From Allomyces arbusculus (lineage: Eukaryota > Blastocladiomycota > Blastocladiomycetes > Blastocladiales > Blastocladiaceae), in assembly GCA_027604705.1 (NCBI GenBank), contig JADHYV010000097.1, positions 1 to 58,910 of the forward strand: a stretch of DNA of 58,910 nt. The letters run 5' to 3'. The stretch's first letter is position 1. Every line of letters begins with the position of its first letter. This document shows positions 12,519 to 56,286 of this stretch, in pieces. The notes below the pieces were generated by a model, which was not told where the DNA came from, did no database searches, and was given only the letters and a program-made list of their open reading frames with translations. The translations under genes were made by a program, and so were the position numbers.

Positions 12519-15500
12519 TCAAAACAGTCCAACTACACGCGCGCACGTAATTCATCAGTCCTTGCACGCCCTTCGCCCGGCCCCGCCCGCTGAACCGCAA
12601 CATAACACGTACGCTTCTTCTTGAGGTCCTTCTGCTTCCACCCGGCGAGCGCGGCAAACGCGGCACGGTCCATCCCAAAATGCTTGCTGAAATCGACGTC
12701 GCTCAAGTAAGACTCGAGTTGCGATGGGTCGAGCCCACGCACCGTCTTGTTGCGAAGCTGGTCAATCGAGTAAGTCGGTTTCGTAGGGCTCCCCAGGAAC
12801 TCGGCCATTGTGACCACATCCTATAAAAATGGAGCGTGAGATGCGCAAGCTGCCCCGAGGCATGTTTAAAGGCGTGAACTAGTCCATACCGTTTGCCCGC
12901 CGAACCGGCCCGTCAAGAACGCTGCCCCCGGCAAGAGCGACTGCATGTACGCCGGCAGACCCGTCGGCATCTTGGCCACAAACACGTTGGCCTCCTTGAC
13001 CCCCTTGTAGGTCTTGGCCAAATCGAGCGCCGTCTTGACAAACTCGGCATCCGCGACCATCGACCCGACGAGGACCACCATCTTGTCCTCCCCGACAGCC
13101 ACGAGCGTGACAGAATCCTCGCGCACGTCACGCCACGTCGCGTGCGCGACCGCGCGCAACGACGCCGTCGGCGCCATCGTGAAGACGGCCGTGGTCGTGC
13201 CCTTGGCGACACGCGGGTTCACGACGGGCGTTCCGCCAAGCTGCTTGGCGAAATCGAGCGGCGTCGCGGGCGCGATCATCCGGTCGTGCACGAGCGAGGG
13301 CGGGTAGTGCGCGAGGTTGCGCGTGGCCGGGTCGGTCGTCAAAAGTTGGTTCTTGGTTTTGAGGACAAAGTGCGCGGTTGGGCAGTTCCAGATCGCCGCC
13401 GGGTCCTGGTTTCGCCGACGCGCTGTTAGTTCCACCCGGTATGTGCATTAGTCACGGGTGGGATCACACATACCGCATTGATCACCTCTAACACCCGCCC
13501 GTTCGCATGCACCGCACACAATTCCTTTTCGGCGACCGCCGTCGGCTTCCCGTCTTCGCCCAAGTACGTCCCCGGGCGGTACACGACGCGGCGATCCGCA
13601 AACAAGCCCCAGAACGCCGTCGGTTCGCGGTACTGGTGCACCGTGGCCACGGGTCCACCCCCACGACGCAGTTCGGCCAGCATCAACTGACTCAGCGGCG
13701 AATCTGTGGCCGTCGACCCGACCCACTTGACGAACCCACCCGACGCGGTCGACAGAACATACACGTCCTTGGCGTACAAGATCCCAACGTCGACGTCGGC
13801 CATCCGCGCGCGGGACTCGCGCACAACGTAGACCGCCTCGATTGTGTCGTTTGCGGGCCACGTGTCCCACGGCGCACCCACCGTCGGCGTCGCGGCAGCG
13901 GCGTGGACGCGGGCCCAATCATGCACGACCTTTTCCGGCACCAATCCCGCGGCCACCGCGAGCGATGCGCCATCGCGTCCGGAAGTCGAGTTACTGCGCG
14001 AGAGCCGGCCGGACGTGATGGGTGGGAACACGGCCGCGGGGGACGCGGGCGATCCGAGCCCGACGCCGCCGGAACTGAAACTTGGGCTGCGGCCGAGCGT
14101 CGCAAAGTATTCCTTAAACACGGTCGTTTCGTGGCCTTCGTGCACGACCGTCGGGACCACGCCAAAGACGCCGAGGACCTTGCGCGAGATCGCGTCCGAG
14201 TCGGCACCGCCGCTGGCGGCGGCTTGCGCGCCGACCCAGACGTACGCGACGGCGCGCGTCCCGCCATTGGCGGAAGTGAAGTTGGCGACGACGACGAACG
14301 CGCGGGCCGTGTCGAGGAGACTCATCGGCGCGCGAGACCCGCCCGTGAGCGTCGTCACCGGGTCGAGCAACTGGTCCGAGTCATAAATCGCGACCTGGTG
14401 CAGATCCACCGCGTCGGGTTTCAACCCGGCGACTACCGACGGCACGTCGACGACCCGGACCCCGAGAACCTTCCAAAACTCAGACCCGGCGCGATCCATC
14501 ACATCCTCCAGCGTCGTCGGCAGCTTGCCCGCGGGCACTTCCACGTCCTTGATCCGCGTCGCCACGTCCATCGCCTTGGCTTTCTTCAGCACCGCCGCAT
14601 CGGGTCCGGCCCAGACATAGATCGCCGTCGCCGTCGGCGTGACAGGGTCGAGCGAGTCGGGCACGGGCGCGTTCACGATCGACCGCAGCGTGGGCGCGAC
14701 GACCAGAACGTACGCGTCGTTGCGGGCCAGTTCCGCGGTCGAGACGGTCGTGCACGGGATCACTGTGAACTTCTTGCTCCCGACAACGCGGTACAGCGCT
14801 GGACCGCCGGGGGCCGCGCGCGTGCTGTTGGAGCGCGACAGCGAGTTGGTGCGGGACCGTGTGCGCGTGCCGGTCGCGGGCGCACCGCCGATACTGCTCC
14901 CAAGCCCGCCGAAACTGGCCGTGCGCGACCGCGGGCCGGAAGACGTGGGGCCGCCGGGTGCGGCAAGGCTCGCGCCGGGGGACACGGGAGACAGGTGGTT
15001 CGCAGCCGTGGTGGGGGACGCGTTGAGACTCGCGTGCAAGTCCCGCTGCAGCTGCGCCAGCGCCGACGTCGACCGCTCGAGCGGTGCCGGTTTCGTGGGA
15101 CTCGCGGGCGCGGGCTCAGCAGCGGGCTCGACGAACGTCGGCTCAGGTGCCTTGATCGGCGCCGTCTCCTTGGCGATACCAGGCATCCCCGACGACTCGC
15201 CGAGGGCCTCCGGGATACTTGGCTCGTCGGGCGCCGCCGACTCGGCATCTTTCCCCGATGGCGAGGTGCCGGCGAGGTTCGTGAGCGACCCGTGCCGCGA
15301 CGAGGGCTTGCGGCCTTTAGGCGGCGGCGGGCGCGTCGCCGTCGGGTGCGTGAGTTCCGTGGTCTTGGCGGGAGACGCAGGCTCACTGGTGCTCGTGGAC
15401 GAGTCAGTCGTGGCGGCACCAGCAGACGCGCTGGCGAGGCCGGGCAGGGGGGTGCCGCCGCGCGTCGCGAGCCGTTGCAGCCGTTTCTGCTCGGATTCCT

Positions 15501-15823
15501 GTCATTTCAAGTCAAGACATCCATGAGGGCACGTTCAGATCCGGTCCCACGCGACGGTACGCGATGCAAGGTACCTTTTCCAACTTCCCGGCGAGCTCCT
15601 TCAACTCCTCGGACCGGCGATCGCGCGACTCGCGGCGCAACTTCTTGGCGGACTCGACCGTTTTCTCCACACCTTCGAGCGTTGAGGCCAGTGACCCGGC
15701 CTCGCGCGAGAGCGACCCGGACGGCGACATGGCGCCGCCGGCGCCGCCGGCCGCGAGCAAGTAGGCCGACGCGGTCAGGGCGCGGTTGCTGCCGGATGGA
15801 CTGGACTGGCTCGGGTCGGCCAT
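12519..15823 (-). CDS. Villin/gelsolin-family actin-binding protein with headpiece
   Basis: Five exons: 15575-15823, 13474-15498, 12890-13405, 12613-12820 and 12519-12532, giving 1003 aa. Residues 1-316 are low-complexity and Ser/Pro/Ala-rich. About 317-930 hold several gelsolin-like repeats, for example YVWAGPDAAVLKKAKAMDVA, the hallmark beta-strand plus long helix, followed by FWKVLG. The C-terminus is a villin headpiece with YLSDVDFSKHFGMDR and WKQKDLKKK. The last exon is only 14 nt and completes the canonical ...KKLGLF end, which confirms the final splice. Introns are 68-80 nt. The protein should bind, sever or bundle F-actin; the long disordered N-terminus is unusual for villins and recalls supervillin/dematin-type headpiece proteins. 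Whether calcium is required cannot be judged from the sequence. Confidence 0.85.
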
Positions 15824-25158: not shown

Positions 25159-26434
25159 TTACTCCTTTTTCTCCACCGCCTCGTCTTCAATCCCCATCCA
25201 CCCGACCGGCCGGTACCACGCGGCCTGCGCGACCCACGCCAACACTTGCGCGCGATCCACACCCTCGGCGCGCGTCGACATGGCAAAATACGAATTCGGC
25301 GCAAACGACGCCGTGTTGTTGACCTCGAGCACGTAGACGCGCCCGGCATCATCGCACCGCACATCGACGCGCCCCCACGCACACCCGCCGACCGCCACAT
25401 ACGCGTCGCGTGCAGCGACGCGACACGCCTCGACTAATTCCGGCTCCCCCTGGACGACCTTCTCAGCTGCAGTCCCGTCGGGCGGCGAAAACAGTTGCCC
25501 CGGCAAGAACACGCGCTCGACCGCATGGAACGCGCGAACGCCCGTGGGCGTGTCGCAGACGGCGACGGTAAACTCGCGCCCGGCGAGGTACCGCTGCACG
25601 ACGATGGCGCCGTGCGCCTCGACGAGTGGCGAGGCCGCGGTGACGAGGGCGTCGTACGAGTCGACGACGCACCCGGAAGTCAGGCCGCACGAGTTGAACC
25701 CGTTGTCAACCTTGATGAAGAGCCGCGTGCCGGGGGCGTTGGCGAGAATGCGGTCGACAAAGTCGCGCGTGGTGGTGCCGTTGAGCTCGTCGAGGTTTGG
25801 GACAATGAGCGAGTCGGCGTGCGGGATTTGGGAGCGGACGAATTGGTCGTGCATGCGCGACTTGTGCAGCGTGCGCTCGCAGAAGGCCGGGACGTGCCCG
25901 AGGACGTGCGGGAACTGGCCCACGCGGAGGAACGTGCTGGAGAGCAGAGAAATGGACCGGATCAGTCACGTGTATTCCTGAGAGAGGATCGCGACGCAGG
26001 AGAACATACCGCAGCGCCGTAAACTCGGCCCCCTTGGTCAACCCGGGCGGCATATCCGCATGCAGCACGAGCACACCGTCCTTGGGCACTTTACGCGCGA
26101 GTTCCTCGGCATTCTCGTCGTTCACGACCCATGTCGTCACCGACGTGCACCCGAGCTCGCGCACGGGCACGATCAGGTCCGTGTGCAGCGCCGGGTCGGC
26201 ATAAGACGGGTCGTAGATGAGGTGCACGTCGCGACCAGCAATCGGCGACGGGATGAGTGGGGTAGGAGTGGCGGTAGCTGACGCGGGCGCGGGCGCGCTC
26301 TTGACGGGCACCGGGGCAATCTCGGCACTGCGCGCGGGCGCCGGGCCGTCGAGCGTCAGGGCCGCCGCGGCGTCGACGAGGTGCGCGTCGGAAGTGGTGG
26401 CGGCGGTGGCGCCGATCAGGTCGTGCGCGGGCAT
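25159..26434 (-). CDS. ATP-grasp ligase of the D-Ala-D-Ala ligase type
   Basis: Exons 26010-26434 and 25159-25936 give 400 aa; the intron is 73 nt with GTATGT and CTCTCCAG. The N-terminal 65 residues are low-complexity Ala/Pro/Thr. A Rossmann-like segment starts RDVHLIYDPSYADPALHTDL and a hinge has DGVLVLHADMPPGLTKGAEF. The C-terminal ATP-grasp part contains RLFIKVDNGFNSCGLT, VVQRYLAGREFTVAVCD and WGRVDVRCDDAGRVYVLEVN, with acidic and Asn residues in the usual Mg-ATP positions. It should form an amide or peptide bond from a carboxylate using ATP. Fungi lack D-Ala peptidoglycan, so the true substrate is unknown. A bacterial origin is possible, but the gene has a normal host intron and GC content. 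Confidence 0.7.
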
Positions 26435-44046: not shown

Positions 44047-44636
44047 TCACGGCTTGTTCTCCTGTGCGCTGTTGTTGTCCTTGTTGAGGACGAGCGGGAC
44101 TAGACGAAGAGCATCAGGGATTGGGTCAGTACTCTGTCCGTCGGGTCGCGCGCGGTCCGCGCCATGCCGCTGCCGGTGTCGGTGGACCTGAACGCGGGGC
44201 GGGTGGTGCCGCGCGCGCATACCGCGCGGCACGCCGAGCACGCGGAAACATACGAATGATCGCGAGCAGAATCGCAACGACAATCAAGAACACGATGATC
44301 TTGAGCTTCATGTTCTTCCACCACTACACACACACACGCCCGCAACGCCGTCAGTCCTCCCGTCCGCTGCCCCGCCTCTTCGTCCGCTGTGAGCCGTACC
44401 ATCTGCTTGCGCACTTTGGTCGCGCCACGACGAAACTGGTTGGCCGACTGCGACAAGTCCTCGGTCTTGGTCTGCAGCGTGTCGAGCCGCTCGCCGCGCT
44501 CCATGACTTTTTCAATGTTTTGCTGCATGATGCCGACGACTTCGTTGACCTGCGCCTGGATCGCCGACGTCTTGGACGGGCCCGCCGTCGCTTGCTGCGT
44601 CGGGGATTGCGTGTGCGCCGAGGCGTAGCCGGACAT
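44047..44636 (-). CDS. Synaptobrevin/VAMP-type R-SNARE
   Basis: Exons 44400-44636, 44254-44323 and 44047-44099 give 119 aa. The SNARE motif [20 protein letters not shown]...[15 protein letters not shown] has the zero-layer Arg in [13 protein letters not shown] at the membrane border and a C-terminal anchor [15 protein letters not shown], completed by the third exon (LPLVLNKDN...), match yeast Snc1 and animal VAMPs. The intron 2 splice (154 nt) keeps the anchor hydrophobic, whereas reading through would insert charged residues. It drives fusion of secretory vesicles with the plasma membrane or endosomes. The N-terminus is short and Ser/Thr/Gln-rich, without a longin domain. Confidence 0.9.
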
Positions 44637-45165
44637 GGTGGATGGGCTGGTGGTGCGGTGGGTCGGTGTTGGTGCGGGCGGTCGGGTCCAAGGCACGGCG
44701 CGCGGGGTGCGGCGGGTCGAGTGCGTTCGCGCGGGCGGGTCGAGTGCGGCAAGTCGCGGCCGTGCGGGGTGCAGGTGTGGTCGAGGTGCCGGAGGTGCGT
44801 GGGTGTTCGGGAGAGGGGGAGCGGCACGGGAGGGATGATCGAGGCGCTGATGACTTTCAGTCGTTGACGTTGCGGGCTGCCCAAGTCAGCTGCGTGGCGA
44901 AATGTGCGGTCTGGCGTGGGCGCTTGGCGGTAGCGGTCCGCCGTTCTTTTGTCGGCGCTTCCTGCTTGCTGTTCCGGCTCGGATTGGCCTTGGCCGAATC
45001 GTTCTCCACTCACCCCACTGACATTTTGGCGGGCGAATGGGCAACAAGTGGATGCGCGCGCAACCACTCTGACGGGATCGACGCGCTGCCGAGAAGCCGT
45101 CACGCTCCTCCATCCCGATCAATCCAACGCGCAACGATGCCAAATAAATACCTAACCCCCCAAAT
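44637..45165. other. Intergenic region upstream of the R-SNARE
   Basis: Holds the R-SNARE promoter side and the 3' flank of the presenilin gene. No gene recognised. Confidence 0.4.
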
Positions 45166-46920
45166 CTACACCAGCAACCGCTGATTCGCGACCATCTGCG
45201 TGAATGGCACCAGCGAAAACGCCGACCCCAGGTAAAATACGATCCCAAACGTGATCGAGATCGGCAATGCCGGCAACGCCTTCCTCGTAATCGCCAGCAA
45301 CAAGATCGTCATGGTCATGCCCGTCGTCACGGCAATAATGCACGCGATCGTCGTGACCCAATCGGTCATGGCCGCGCGCGCCGTCAGCACCGAATAGAAA
45401 ACAAAGTCGCCAAGACCGAGCTTCAATCCGGAATCGTCGTCGTCGTCGTCGTCGTCGTCGGCGTCGGCGAGCGTCGACGGCACACGCGGCGCGGTCGCGG
45501 CGTGGGCGGGAGGTGGTGCTGGTGCGCCGGGTGTGCCGGTGGTGGCGGGATCGACGAGCCGCCGCAACGACCCTTCCGACTCGGACGACTGCGCAGTCGG
45601 GGCCGGCGGGTCGTCGGGCGCGAGACCCGGTAAGAGCGTGGCCGGCGCGGCGGGGGATCCACCGGGTCGCCTCGGCGCGCCGGGCGTCGCCGACATGAAC
45701 CAGACGCAGGCGCCGACCGAGTAGACGAGCATTTCAATGTTCTGGTTGCGTTCCTTGACCGTGTTGAGCAGTGCGCGCAGCGGGCCGTAGGGGGAGAGGA
45801 CGGCAAAGAGATCCCACAAGACGAGTAGCGCAAGGAGGATCCAAGTGGTCCATTCTTGCAGGCCAGTCAGGGCGAACGCCTACGACGGTGGAGAGTGAGA
45901 AGGGCAGTACTCGTGACGGAGGAAACGGGTGGAGAAAGACGAACAGACCATGAGCGACGAGATGAGCACGAGGTAAATCTGCTGCACGAACCTTGGCGCG
46001 CGCCAAAACGTGCCGACAATCCCGACAATTGCGAAATTATACAGGCAGAACCCAAGCGTCACGTAGTCGATGACCATACGGAACGCGTTGATGATCGACA
46101 AAGACAATAAAAACCCGGTAAACCCGAGCACCGAGATCAAGACGAGCGAGAAGAGCCCGTAAATGATCTTCATGCAATTATACTTGAAGAGCAAGACCAG
46201 AATCACCGTCATGACGGCAATCTGCGCCAGGATAATGCCCGCGTTCATGAACCCGCCGGCAAGCCGCGCGCCGCTCGACGCGGTCGCGTCTTCCTTGTAG
46301 ACGGTCCAGACGGATCCGGCCGGGCGGAATTCTTGCGACGACATGGAAATTTTGGTCCAGGCGATCGACAGCAGGATGCAGATCAGGATCGGGCGCACGA
46401 GTTTGGTGACTTGCGCCGTGTAGAAGAGTAGGTCGGCCGCCGTGTCCGGGTCGTACCCGAGCGTGTGCAATCGCGCAACGGTGGTCTCGGGCAGCTGCGA
46501 CGCGTCAATGTGCGCGGTGTGGTGCGGGTGCGCGGCCGTCGTCGTGGTGGCGGAGGTCGCGGTCGCGGCGGCTGGAAGACCGGGAACGGCTGGTGCCGCG
46601 GACGTCAGTCTTCCACCCATTCTTCTTGCTCGGTGCAATCTGTCGGCGGACCACGTACTTGGCACGGCGGCGGTCGCCTTGCACACAGGCGCGTGCGCGG
46701 GCCAGTCGGCGAGCTGGCACGCCTGGCTGCAGTAGGAAATGGCGGGCCCGCACTGCGAGCAGGCCGAGGTCGCGCGCTTGCCGCACACGCGGCACACGGC
46801 AGGTGGTGGAGCCGGCCCTGGTGTACGTGCGCCGGCATTCTGGTCGGCGGCACTGGTCGAGGCGCCAGGCTTGGACGACATGGCGGCGACGGCGTTGCCG
46901 GGATTGGGTGGTGGCGGCAT
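45166..46920 (-). CDS. Presenilin with N-terminal MYND zinc finger
   Basis: Exons 46659-46920, 45949-46589 and 45166-45879 give 538 aa. Residues 43-80 are a complete MYND finger, C-x2-C-x7-C-x2-C-x6-C-x3-C-x7-H-x3-C with the usual Trp before the His. Then follow nine predicted membrane spans of presenilin, the intramembrane aspartyl protease of gamma-secretase. The catalytic Asp residues are in VLWDLFAVL (D324; the usual YD is WD) and GLGDFVFYSVL (D459), and the PAL motif is in ALPALPISITFG (504-506). The large loop holds nine Asp in a row. The first intron (69 nt, GTACGT...CAG) reads open and lies between MYND and presenilin, so finger and protease share one frame with or without splicing. 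A second ATG at 46881 would also include the finger. Confidence 0.88.
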
Positions 46921-47504
46921 GGACTGGCCGAGTGCAGGTCAAGTTGGTGGGTGGATTGGCTGCGCCAGGGATTGGATCCGTGACGTGTCGCGCCCGTGAA
47001 TTACAGCGTCGCGGTGCCGGTGCTCGTGCTCGCCTGGTATTGATGCTCGTGCTCGCGGTCGTAGTCGTTGCCCGTGGCCGTGCGCTAAGTCGTGGTGGTG
47101 GAGCGCGGTCGCGGGCGACACCGGCCGCGCCGGTGCTGACGGCGGCGTTCAGGAGGCCGCCCACGGAAGAGGCGGCGCGGGCGGCGCCAAGACCGGTCGA
47201 GTCGGGAGATGGCAGGGGCGTGCAGGGACATCACCTGACCGCGCCGCGAGGGCTATTGAGGCAGCGCGCGCCTGGCCCCGCTCATGTCTCACCCCGCGCG
47301 CGCCGCTGCTCCGCCCGTGATCAGGCGCGGCATCACCTGCCGAGAGCGCTGCCACGGGAACACGCGCTCCGGCGGGCGCGGCCGACCGGCCAGCCGAGCT
47401 CGCGCTCTCTCTCGCGCACGACCCGCTCGCTCCAACCATCGCCACACCGCCGTCTTCGAACACCAGCTGCACCGACCGCACGGCCGCCAACGACACCGAC
47501 CGTG
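46921..47504. promoter_or_regulatory. Region between divergent presenilin and 47.5-kb gene
   Basis: 584 bp, GC-rich, without TATA box. CGTGCTCGC-type repeats near 47023-47058 are the only pattern seen. Confidence 0.3.
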
Positions 47505-48613
47505 ATGCACCACTTCCCGCTCGCGCACCGCCACCGCAAGCACAAGCCCGGCACCGCCGAGGCCATGGCCGCGACCTCGGCTGTCGCGCAGCGCGACGCG
47601 GCCGCCGTGGCCGGCGCCGGCACGGGCCCGGCTTTCAACGAGGCCGACGTGCCGCTCGGCCGCGCACCAGGTGGGAGCACGATCGCGACGCCCGACGCGC
47701 CCGTGGCCGAGCTGCACCATCTGCGCTACGTGCACCACACGCGCCACGCGGGCCTGTTCCGCAAAAAGCACTACCATTCGTACGAGGTACGCCGCGCTCG
47801 GTCTGAGCGAGGCAATTGAGGGTTGCGGTTGAATCTGACCGATCTGATCCGGTCGCGACGCGCATGAAGTTTGACCACCCGCACTGGGAACGGCTCGAGA
47901 CGATCCCGCTCGGCGGCGCGACGATTCCTGCCGCGCTCGAGGGCACGTCCTCCTCCACGACGCGTACAGCCCCTGTCCCGCCGCCGCGCGACTCGGCCGT
48001 CGTCGCGTCGGCGCCGCCCTCCGAGTCCGTCGTAACGCGCACGGAAACCACGACCACGACCGTCGAGCCAGAACCGCGCCCGTCGTTCCACCGGCACGCG
48101 TCGTACGACCGGCACGTCTCTGTCGTCGAGGACGTCGAGCTGCGCCGCACCTCGTCTACGCCCACCGCCCCTCTCCCCCCGCCCACCCGGCGCATCCCGT
48201 CGGCCACATCCACGTCGCGTTCCGTCCGGTCGCTCCGGCTCGACGAACCGGACGTGGCCGCACGGTACCGCGACATTGACGTGGACCGCGAACTCGAGTT
48301 GGCCCGTGCGCGGATGATGGCCGACGAAGCGCGCGCCCAACGCACGGGTGGGCACCAGCACCGCACTCTGTCGGGGCCCGTCGAAGACCCGCACGAGTAC
48401 TCGGCCGACCGCACGCGCGTGCCGCACCCGGACGCGGAGCCGGCCGGGGATTGGGTGCCTATGCATTACCGCGACGACTACGTTCCGCAGGCGCGCGAAG
48501 AGCCTTCGATCATGGGTGCGGGGATGGCGTCGTCGAGCGCGGGCGCGCCGGGCCGGCTCGACGATCCGCGGCAGTGGCGTGCCGCGTCGCCGGGGACGGT
48601 CGAGCGCGTGTGA
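47505..48613 (+). CDS. Hypothetical, largely disordered protein (2 exons)
   Basis: Exons 47505-47786 and 47870-48613 give 341 aa. The intron (83 nt) starts GTACGC and ends ATGAAG; phases agree. The protein starts MHHFPLAHRHRKHKPG. It has a conserved-looking core around the splice site (RHAGLFRKKHYHSYE then FDHPHWERLETIPLGG) and is otherwise Ser/Thr/Pro/Arg-rich with many acidic and His residues. No membrane span, signal peptide or known domain. Codon use resembles the neighbouring genes. Confidence 0.6.
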
Positions 48614-50443: not shown

Positions 50444-51994
50444 ATGACGGCCGGTCCCGACGTGCCTCCTGGCTCGGCGAGCGCATTGCGCGTCTTCATT
50501 CTGCTGCTCAAGTCGAACATTGGCACGGGCGCACTCTTCTTGCCCGGTGTACGTTTCTCTCCACTCTCCTTTCGCGTTGGAAATGGATTGGAGCCTGATG
50601 CCTGACGCCCGATCCCGATCCGATTGATAGGCATTCGGTGATGGCGGATATGCGTTCTCGTTTGTGCTCTTGATCGTGCTCGCGTTCCTGTCGACGGTCG
50701 GCATGGTGTTGCTCGCGCAGACGAACCAGCTCGTGCCCGGCTCGTTTGAAGAGATGGGCAAGAAGTTGTATGGCAGGTGGCTGCACCTGCTGATTCTCGG
50801 CAGTGTCGCGCTCGCGCAGTCGGGCTTTTGCTCAGCGTACACGGTGTACGTACCCACTCATCCATTTCCTCTTTCTCGTCCCGCGGCAGCCTAAGCTGAT
50901 CCCAACGTGCCCACTCCCATAGCTTTATTGCTCAAAACACGGTCGAGTTCATCCGGCGCGTCTCGCACGACACGATCCTGCTCAAGACGTGGCACATTAT
51001 TCTGATCGAGCTGGCCTTCTTCATCCCGTGCTCGTGGGTGCGGCGCGTCGAGAACTTTTCGGCCTTTTCGCTCATGGGCAACGCGTTTGTCCTGTTTGGG
51101 CTCGGCGTTATTTGCGTCTCAGGTATCTCGCACATTGTCGATGTCGGCCACATCGCTGAGGGTATTGTGCAGTTCAACCCAGACAAGTTTGCGCTGTACA
51201 TCGGCACCGCCGTGTACGTGGTTCTCCACCCGATTCCGATTGCGCGGCGACGCAGAGACTGACGCGTGTTCCCGCGATTAGGTACACGTACGAGGGGATT
51301 GGTCTCGTGATCCCGGTCTCGCAGTCGATGAAGAACCCGCAGCGGTTCCCGCTCGTGCTCTCGCTCGCATTGACGGTGACGACGGCCGTCTACCTGTTTG
51401 TCGCGTCGTGCGGGTACCTGGCCTGGGGCCCGGACGTCAAGCCGATTGTGCTCTTCAACCTGCCCGAGGGCGGGTTCACGTCTGCCATCTACATTCTCTA
51501 CATTGTCGCGATTCGTACGTTTCGCTTTCTTGACCCGTGATCGACGCGTTCCCTCCTCGACAATGAAACTGACCTCACCACCCCCGCTCTCGCTCATTCC
51601 AGTCCTCTCGTGGCCGCTCATCCTGTTCCCGGCGACCGTCATCGTCGAGCGCCTTCTCGTTCCTGCACCCCCAGTCGAACTGGAAAAGGGCGCCAAACCC
51701 GTGCGCGGGGCCGACTGGTCCGCACGCAAGCGGTACTGGGTGCAGAACGCGGTGCGCACGTGCCTGGTGCTGGTGATCGGGTGCGTCGCCTATGCCGCGG
51801 GCGAGGCACTCAACAAGCTCGTCTCGATCATCGGGTCGTTTGGGTGTGTCCCGCTCAGCTTCGTCTACCCGGGCCTGCTGCACATGCGGTCGCACCCGGA
51901 ACAGGGGATGCTCGGCCGGTTTACCGATTGGTTCCTCGTCGTCGTCGGGACGATCGCGATGCTGTATGTGACAGTCATGACCTTTATGTCGTAG
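50444..51994 (+). CDS. Amino-acid transporter, AAAP family (AVT3/AVT4, SLC36-like)
   Basis: Exons 50444-50548, 50631-50845, 50923-51213, 51282-51514 and 51603-51994 give 411 aa with about eleven membrane spans. The start FILLLKSNIGTGALFLPGAFGDGGYAF is split by intron 1 and is the family hallmark (LLKxxxGTGxLxLPxAF). Further family features are YTYEGIGLVIPVSQSMKNP and the following FPLVL. It most resembles vacuolar exporters AVT3/AVT4 and lysosomal SLC36 proteins, moving neutral amino acids with protons, though the long N-terminal cytosolic domain of AVT3 is missing. All introns (68-88 nt) begin GTACGT and end YAG or TAG. Confidence 0.85.
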
Positions 51995-54073: not shown

Positions 54074-56286
54074 ATGCACCCCAAATTGATACCCGACACC
54101 ATGCACGACAACGACGACGACGACACTATGCGCGACGATGACGTGCCCGCTCCACCACCTCCGCCGCCACCAAGCCAGTGGATCTACACGAGCGTCGCGC
54201 TCTGGCAAGCACCGCCGGAAAGCTCGTCCAAGAGCACCAACCGCGCCGATATTCCCGACGAAGACGATGGCGACGACGAGCTGCTCCCGCCCGCGCCTCC
54301 AGCACGCTCCCGCGCCGTGCCGCCGCGACCCATCAAGTCGCCACACGCCGCTGCCGTGCACTCGCCCGTTCTGCGAACCCCACACGCCGTGATTGTGCTC
54401 TCCGACACGGACGGCAGCGACGACGACAATCATGTACCATCCGCGCGGCCCGCGCCGCCACCGCCTCGGCGCCCGCCGCGCGTTCCGCGCATGTCGGCGG
54501 TCGAAGCGGCCGACGAGGAGCTTGCGCGGCAATTGCAGGCCGAGTGGGACATGATGGACGCGGCCGAGGCCGCCGCGGCGGGGTCGTCGTCGAGCCGGAT
54601 GGACGACGAGGCGCTCGCGCGCCGATTGCAGGCCAACGACGAGGAGCTCGCGCGGCAATTACAGGCCGAATGGGCGGCATCCGCCGCGTCTTCGTCTGCC
54701 ACGGCGGCCGGGTCGAGCGCGATGGCTTACCCACTTCCTGCACCCTCGCCCGCCACGCCGCATGCGGTCGCTCCACCACCTCGCATGTCGGCGTCCCCGA
54801 CGAAACCCGACGACGTGGCCGCGATCATTGCCAAGACGACGCCCGACTCGCGGATCGCGTTCGCCGACGAGGGCCCGCTGCTCAAATTGCACGAAAGGTT
54901 CATGTACTACAACCACCGATACTTTGGCGGGAAACTGTCGGCGTGCGAGGTGCGGTGGAGTCCGCGGATGACGCTGTGCGCGGGCCAGTGCCATTACCGC
55001 CCGCAAGAAGGGTACTGCTCGGTGCGGCTGTCGGTGCCGCTGCTGCAGTACCGGCCCAAGCAGGACGGGATCGATACGTTGTTGCACGAAATGATCCACG
55101 TACGTTCAATTGATTCGGCGATGCAGTTGGACAGAGTTCGCACATGAACTGACGCGGACGCGAGGCTAGGCCTACCTGTTTGTCACCGACGGCAACGACG
55201 ACCACGACGGCCACGGGCCGGCGTTCCACGAATGGATGCGCAAGTTGAACGAGCTCGAACCGGGGGCCAAGATCTCCGTGTTTCACACGTTCCGCGACGA
55301 AGTGAATGCGGCGCGCAAGCACGTCTGGAAGTGCAACGGGCCGTGCAAGGACCGGCCGCCGTATTTCGGGATCGTGCGCCGGTCCATGAACCGCGCGCCG
55401 CAACCGGCCGACCGTTGGTGGGCCGAGCACCAGCGCACGTGGTAAGTGACGCTCGCCGCGCTCGAGGAGGGAGGGAGGGACTGGATACTGACCACGGCAC
55501 GGGGCTGGACGCAGCGGCGGCACCTACACCAAGATCCAGGGCCCGGACATCGACGCCAACGGCAACCCGATCCCACCGAAGCCTCCCGCGTCCAAGCGCG
55601 CGCGCAAGTCGGACCCGACTTCTCTACCCGGCGAGGGCCGCCGGCTCGGCATGGCCGGCGACGAAGACGATCCGGACCCACCGCCGCCACCACCCGCCAA
55701 GCGCGCACGCACGACCAAACCCAAGCCCGCCGCCGCCGCCAATGACGACGGGAAGCAAAAATTGCTCGACAGGTACCTGCGGCCGTCGGACCCCACGTCG
55801 CCCGGGATCTTTATGGCACAGCCGCCGACACGCAGTATGCCCGGGTCCGTCACGCCGCCGTCGTCGCCGAGCTACGGACCGCCGGGGTCGTCTCCGTTGA
55901 AGGAGGAGGCGGGAGCGAAGACACAAGCGGAGAGGGCGCCGAGGACGCCCAAGACGCCTGCGCCGCGCGCACGCGGTGCGGCGGGGAGGAGGAAGAAGGG
56001 AGCGGCGGCGGCGGCGGCGGATGGCGTGGCAGCGGTGGCGAATGGCGGTGCTCCGATGGTCCCGCCGGTTTCCGCAGCAGCCATTGGCGGGCCGATACAA
56101 GGGCCGCTGGTCGGGCCCGCGGCCCTGCCGGCGGATGGTGGAGGTGCACGGCCTGTACCGCCGCTGCTTCCAGGAATGATGGGGGGTGCGTATGATGCAC
56201 CCGCAGTACCGGCGCCGCCGGCACCGCCAAGGCTCATGCGGCCGGCGTTTGTGGACTTGACGTGGAGTGAGGAGGACGAGGATTGA
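54074..56286 (+). CDS. Spartan-type DNA-protein crosslink protease (SprT domain)
   Basis: Exons 54074-55099, 55170-55441 and 55515-56286 give 689 aa. The SprT metalloprotease has CEVRWSPRMTLCAGQCHY, the zinc motif HEMIH (338-342) at the exon 1 end, and the third His in DGHGPAFHEWM. The zinc-binding module is KCNGPCKDRPPYFG plus HQRTCGGTY, whose Cys codon is split by intron 2. The N-terminal half has three UIM-like DE(E/A)LAR(Q/R)LQA units. A PIP-box-like QKLLDRYL lies near 513, and SUMO-interaction-like acidic motifs are AVIVLSDTDGSDDD (~105) and FVDLTWSEEDED at the C-terminus. It cleaves proteins crosslinked to DNA at replication forks. The start could be the in-frame ATG at 53765, but conserved content begins later. 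Confidence 0.9.

Follow-up and report, generated by a model that had tools for sequence, protein, structure and literature searches.

A probable single gene for a presenilin with an N-terminal MYND zinc finger

The closest described relatives of the protein considered here are the human presenilins PSEN1 and PSEN2 (PF01080) and, for its N-terminal part, the MYND zinc fingers (PF01753) of ETO (CBFA2T1/RUNX1T1) and DEAF-1. The presenilin N-terminus faces the cytosol, and we know of no presenilin that carries a folded accessory domain. How γ-secretase chooses among its many substrates is debated. The MYND fingers of ETO and DEAF-1 belong to transcription regulators, and in PMC3555993 the DEAF-1 residues Met512, Glu514, Thr516, Gln529 and Trp533 are described as positions shared with ETO for corepressor peptides. 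The same source reports that the MYND finger of BS69 (ZMYND11), which is of the PXLXP-binding type, needs a basic C-terminal patch for its PXLXP ligands.

In a window of 58,910 nucleotides, the whole stretch of DNA that was analysed, we find a minus-strand locus at which a MYND finger is followed by a presenilin. At the level of sequence the feature is real, and it is very probably one gene; the favoured reading is a catalytic subunit of γ-secretase whose finger may serve as a cytosolic docking module. Within a family that is already known, the predicted combination of MYND and presenilin is a new arrangement of domains, unreported in the literature searched.

Domains of the predicted protein

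With both introns removed the product is 538 residues long, and it matches the Presenilin family in two stretches (E 1.8e-102, 343.6 bits against a cut-off of 34.3). Each half is recognized on its own by Pfam, as residues 167-324 of the 46920-45949 translation give E 5.2e-35 and the translation of 45879-45166 gives E 3.5e-60. The aligned stretches of the profile are 3-224, and 318-407 of 408 (exon 3 scan), and the loop between them is unaligned. Among sequences of solved structures, the first presenilin part aligns to PSEN1 residues 73-233 (E 1.3e-23) and the exon 3 product to residues 240-462 (E 5.8e-42), the latter alignment matching D324, D459 and the PAL motif near TM9. A first-pass annotation of this DNA had named both catalytic aspartates and the PAL motif, and the PSEN1 alignment bears this out.

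The protein resembles PSEN1 and PSEN2 in its two-stretch family match, its two catalytic aspartates, the GLGD and PAL motifs, the pattern of transmembrane segments and the long TM6-TM7 loop, which here is 88 residues long and rich in acidic residues and proline. What sets it apart from both is the N-terminal finger with its linker, and a Trp where they have Tyr before the first catalytic aspartate (W323-D324, WD for YD), a substitution that had also been proposed and that stands. The position of this Trp is of consequence in humans: Y256S of PSEN1 is a mutation of familial Alzheimer disease, for which a shift in substrate crosslinking is described in PMC6945062. A run of nine consecutive Asp codons (45433-45459, minus strand) lies within the TM6-TM7 loop, shortly 5' of the second catalytic motif.

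The finger occupies residues 43-80 and aligns over the full zf-MYND profile (positions 1-39 of 39; E 1.3e-9 and 38.4 bits against a cut-off of 22.7 in the 46920-45949 translation, E 2.5e-9 in the 538-residue product). Its eight zinc ligands (C43, C46, C54, C57, C64, C68, H76 and C80) form a C4-C2HC set with MYND spacing, and together with the full-profile match they confirm the complete eight-ligand finger claimed earlier for these residues. When the whole window was scanned in six frames, the MYND-spaced C/H pattern matched once, at this finger. An Ecl1 match that overlaps it in Pfam is sub-threshold (20.3 bits against a cut-off of 28.3), and an NCBIfam search returned no match. MYND fingers fold as a cross-brace around two zinc ions; a structure model of the finger exon built from single-sequence input was poor, with a mean pLDDT of 57.7.

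The nearest solved structures are the MYND fingers of ETO (E 9.3e-6), ETO2 and DEAF-1, with ETO and DEAF-1 at about 1e-5. With ETO and DEAF-1 the finger shares the C4-C2HC ligands and, as far as an alignment read by eye shows, the Ser/Thr, Gln and Trp of the groove. Unlike them, it has a single additional residue separating ligand 4 from ligand 5, carries Thr and Ala where two other groove residues would lie, and sits on a membrane protease instead of in a transcription regulator. In that alignment the residues at DEAF-1 Met512/Glu514/Thr516/Gln529/Trp533 are Thr/Ala/Ser/Gln/Trp. Of the five groove positions, Gln529 and Trp533 are retained, Thr516 is conservatively changed to Ser, and the remaining two differ. 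The likeness to BS69 is that of MYND fingers in general; this finger is without the basic C-terminal patch. Neither PPPL nor PPL occurs in the fusion protein's own sequence. The finger is joined to the protease by a low-complexity linker of about 60 residues.

Exons, introns and start codons

The minus-strand frame 46920-45880 starts with an ATG, codes for the finger and the first presenilin part, and ends at a stop within intron 2. An in-frame TGA (46941-46939) lies 18 nt 5' of the start ATG. The first-pass annotation had placed finger and full presenilin in the same open frame; this is right for the finger and the first presenilin part, whereas both aspartates and the PAL motif lie behind the 69-nt intron 2 with its in-frame TAG. 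Candidate intron 1, between finger and protease, is not named in that annotation. Retention of intron 2 gives a protein that stops before both catalytic aspartates, at 346 residues, or at 323 if intron 1 is spliced; retention of intron 1 lengthens the 538-residue product to 561.

Table 1 Features of the MYND-presenilin locus in window coordinates.
Feature	Position	Strand	Description and basis
Exon 1	46659..46920	-	ATG 46920, Pro/Ala-rich leader, MYND finger; basis: ORF, upstream in-frame TGA, ATG contexts
MYND zinc finger	46681..46794	-	Residues 43-80; Pfam PF01753, ETO/DEAF-1 structure matches, ligand positions
Candidate intron 1	46590..46658	-	69 nt, GTACGT..CTGACG..CAG, phase 1, stop-free, holds ATG 46620
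Exon 2	45949..46589	-	Linker and first presenilin part to the residue matching PSEN1 233; Pfam PF01080, PSEN1 alignment, hydropathy
Intron 2	45880..45948	-	69 nt, GTCTGT..TAG, phase 0, in-frame TAG at its end
Exon 3	45166..45879	-	Remaining presenilin: W323-D324, loop, GLGD (D459), PAL 504-506, stop
First catalytic Asp codon, D324	45811..45813	-	Preceded by Trp, not Tyr; PSEN1 alignment
Second catalytic Asp codon, D459 of GLGDF	45406..45408	-	PSEN1 alignment

Short introns with a branch-point-like motif occur in the window, which gives it what we take to be a fungal look. A loose signature of fungal type (GTRHGT/CTRAY/YAG, 60-79 nt) is present 12 times on the two strands, against a mean of 4.42 and a maximum of 10 in 50 first-order Markov sequences. 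The strict signature GTACGT/CTRACG/YAG is present three times, against a mean of 0.075 and a maximum of 2 in 200 such sequences, an expectation that is flattering because the signature was picked post hoc, after the 12 looser matches. Besides candidate intron 1, the strict signature marks one site in a gene for an amino-acid transporter (51214-51281) and one in a SprT/Spartan gene (55100-55169). Once these two are removed, Pfam matches Aa_trans without a break at E 2.5e-28, and SprT likewise, over profile positions 2-108 of 108. This restoration of the two domains is an independent check on the strict signature.

Intron 2 was absent from the six best junctions of a junction-scoring script, and its donor GTCTGT was not among the donors that the script scored. 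We accept it for two reasons: in the PSEN1 alignments the first half of the presenilin stops at 233 and residue 6 of the second is paired with 240, and joining the halves raises the Presenilin score to its full-product value. Nor did the script yield a usable junction for the UBC and synaptobrevin genes; for the transporter it proposed none, and the intron of that gene came from the signature.

In the spliced product the in-frame methionines are residues 1 and 14 and next residue 170 at the end of TM1, with no in-frame ATG between the finger and TM1. A spliced junction together with a whole TM1 therefore places the start 5' of the finger, barring a non-ATG start or another first exon, and such a start gives the fusion either way, as splicing or keeping intron 1 leaves the frame unchanged. 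ATG 46920 stands in a poor context, with T at -3; the second in-frame ATG, at 46881, has G there and is the better of the two. The one other ATG before TM1, at 46620, lies within candidate intron 1. Its context is strong, with A at -3 and G at +4, and with intron 1 retained it would yield an ordinary presenilin.

Codon scores trained on three other ORFs of the window bear on the same question. In the ORF frame, intron 1 scores -18.8 over about 22 codons, which is to say non-coding, and the leader, the linker and the remainder of exon 2 score +0.3, +4.4 and +30.6, respectively. The leader is below an antisense frame at +3.8. The finger exon as a whole is weak, reaching -2.2 as read in the ORF while an antisense frame reaches +7.7, and for the finger by itself the value is -6.3, lower than in two other frames (-1.2 and -4.4). 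Codon use by itself is insufficient to prove the finger exon; what carries the case is its Pfam match, together with the structure of the gene.

The fusion, its rivals and the role of the finger

We put the probability that one gene codes for a presenilin with an N-terminal MYND finger at roughly 0.8. The fusion, as the first-pass annotation had proposed, is supported by the shared ORF, the well-formed candidate intron between the exons and the lack of an ATG between finger and TM1 in the spliced form. It is unlikely that the gene instead encodes an ordinary presenilin, with most transcripts starting 3' of the finger, either at ATG 46620 or in an unseen first exon spliced to 46589, and with the finger exon a minor or dead alternative exon. 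ATG 46620, with its strong context, would leave an N-terminus of about 70 residues before TM1, like that of ordinary presenilins, and intron 1 is a multiple of three and stop-free, so its retention would be tolerated; against this, 46658-46590 bears the local intron signature and a non-coding score in frame, and once intron 1 is spliced the sole ATGs before TM1 are 5' of the finger. That the finger and the presenilin come from separate places and were misjoined during assembly is very improbable: the frame is continuous, which a random join would seldom preserve, a well-formed candidate intron lies between the parts, and 44600-47600 is free of gaps.

If the fusion holds, the product of the single gene would be the catalytic subunit of γ-secretase, with a MYND finger on a linker at its N-terminus, the cytosolic placement of the finger following from the established topology of presenilin. 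Presumably the protein would be made, would fold into a finger and a protease of nine TM segments, and would assemble with nicastrin, APH-1 and PEN-2. The likeliest mechanism, at slightly less than even odds, is that an ETO/DEAF-1-type groove of such a finger holds short proline-rich peptides, either from cytosolic tails or from adaptors; judged by its groove positions, recruitment of proline-rich partners by the finger is possible. Docking would give the protease its own site for holding substrates or regulators. The weak codon score of the finger exon, the poor context of ATG 46920, the poor structure model, the lack of PPPL and PPL in the protein and the two changed groove positions count against this explanation as a whole. 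Tentatively, and with the odds against it, the locus could mark a γ-secretase lineage with its own cytosolic docking finger, in which a domain of the catalytic subunit, and not the other subunits alone, picks the substrate or regulator.

The finger of the fusion may also have no dedicated role in proteolysis, being a tolerated extension or a handle for trafficking, stability or a ubiquitin-ligase adaptor, and we regard this as plausible though short of an even chance. Mammalian presenilins function without such a domain, and MYND fingers are found across unrelated proteins, one of which, DAF-25, is reportedly required for ciliary localization of a guanylyl cyclase; however, the eight ligands and the groove Ser, Gln and Trp are intact, which suggests upkeep. 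Far less probable is an intramolecular regulator in which the finger binds PGLAP, a PXLXP motif of the protein's own TM6-TM7 loop (residues 385-389) that is not far from the region of presenilin autocleavage. This PXLXP motif is the single one in the loop, and by the known topology the loop and the N-terminus are on the same side of the membrane. Yet 21.6% of 20,000 shuffled loops contain PXLXP, for which reason we retain self-binding as a weak rival only, and the positive C-terminal patch that BS69 needs for PXLXP, as described in PMC3555993, is absent from this finger.

If the docking finger is real, a naturally occurring presenilin that has a defined module for binding peptides would make docking-based choice of substrate directly testable. 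Should the host be an early-diverging fungus, it would belong to a lineage in which the γ-secretase complex reportedly persists and its role is little known.

Relatives and neighbouring genes

No report of a MYND-presenilin protein was found in the literature searched, which included Blastocladiomycota, Allomyces, chytrid and zoospore angles and covered few subscription journals. An entry of the same architecture may well be present in databases of eukaryotic sequences. The word MYND is absent from the main text of the presenilin-related PMC10406608, and PMC8778642 contains neither MYND nor presenilin. In PMC1550239, a table of Blastocladiella ESTs has one MYND entry, which is ZMYND12-like. 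A search for relatives by peptide pattern gave 2 stretches in viral_contigs and 8 in genome_contigs, none of them confirmed, in collections that are not for eukaryotes and so are uninformative on fungi.

Downstream of the presenilin gene, about 470 nt 3' of its stop and on the same strand, lies an ORF for a synaptobrevin-type SNARE (44100-44696, minus strand; PF00957, 78.6 bits). Upstream, 47518-48610 on the plus strand is a probable divergent gene, for which neither 47518-47800 nor 47807-48610 gave a Pfam match at E 0.01. The SprT/Spartan protease gene (54800-55514, plus strand) has an SPRTN zinc-binding domain and, besides the intron given above, a further candidate intron at 55442-55514. 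The C-terminal domain of a D-ala D-ala ligase, unusual in a fungus, is encoded at 25162-25965 on the minus strand (PF07478, 50.8 bits), with a candidate intron at 26009-25937. Finally, a gelsolin/villin-like gene occupies 12536-15501 on the minus strand, with a villin headpiece (PF02209, 52.7 bits), a sub-threshold gelsolin match and an intron at 13473-13406.
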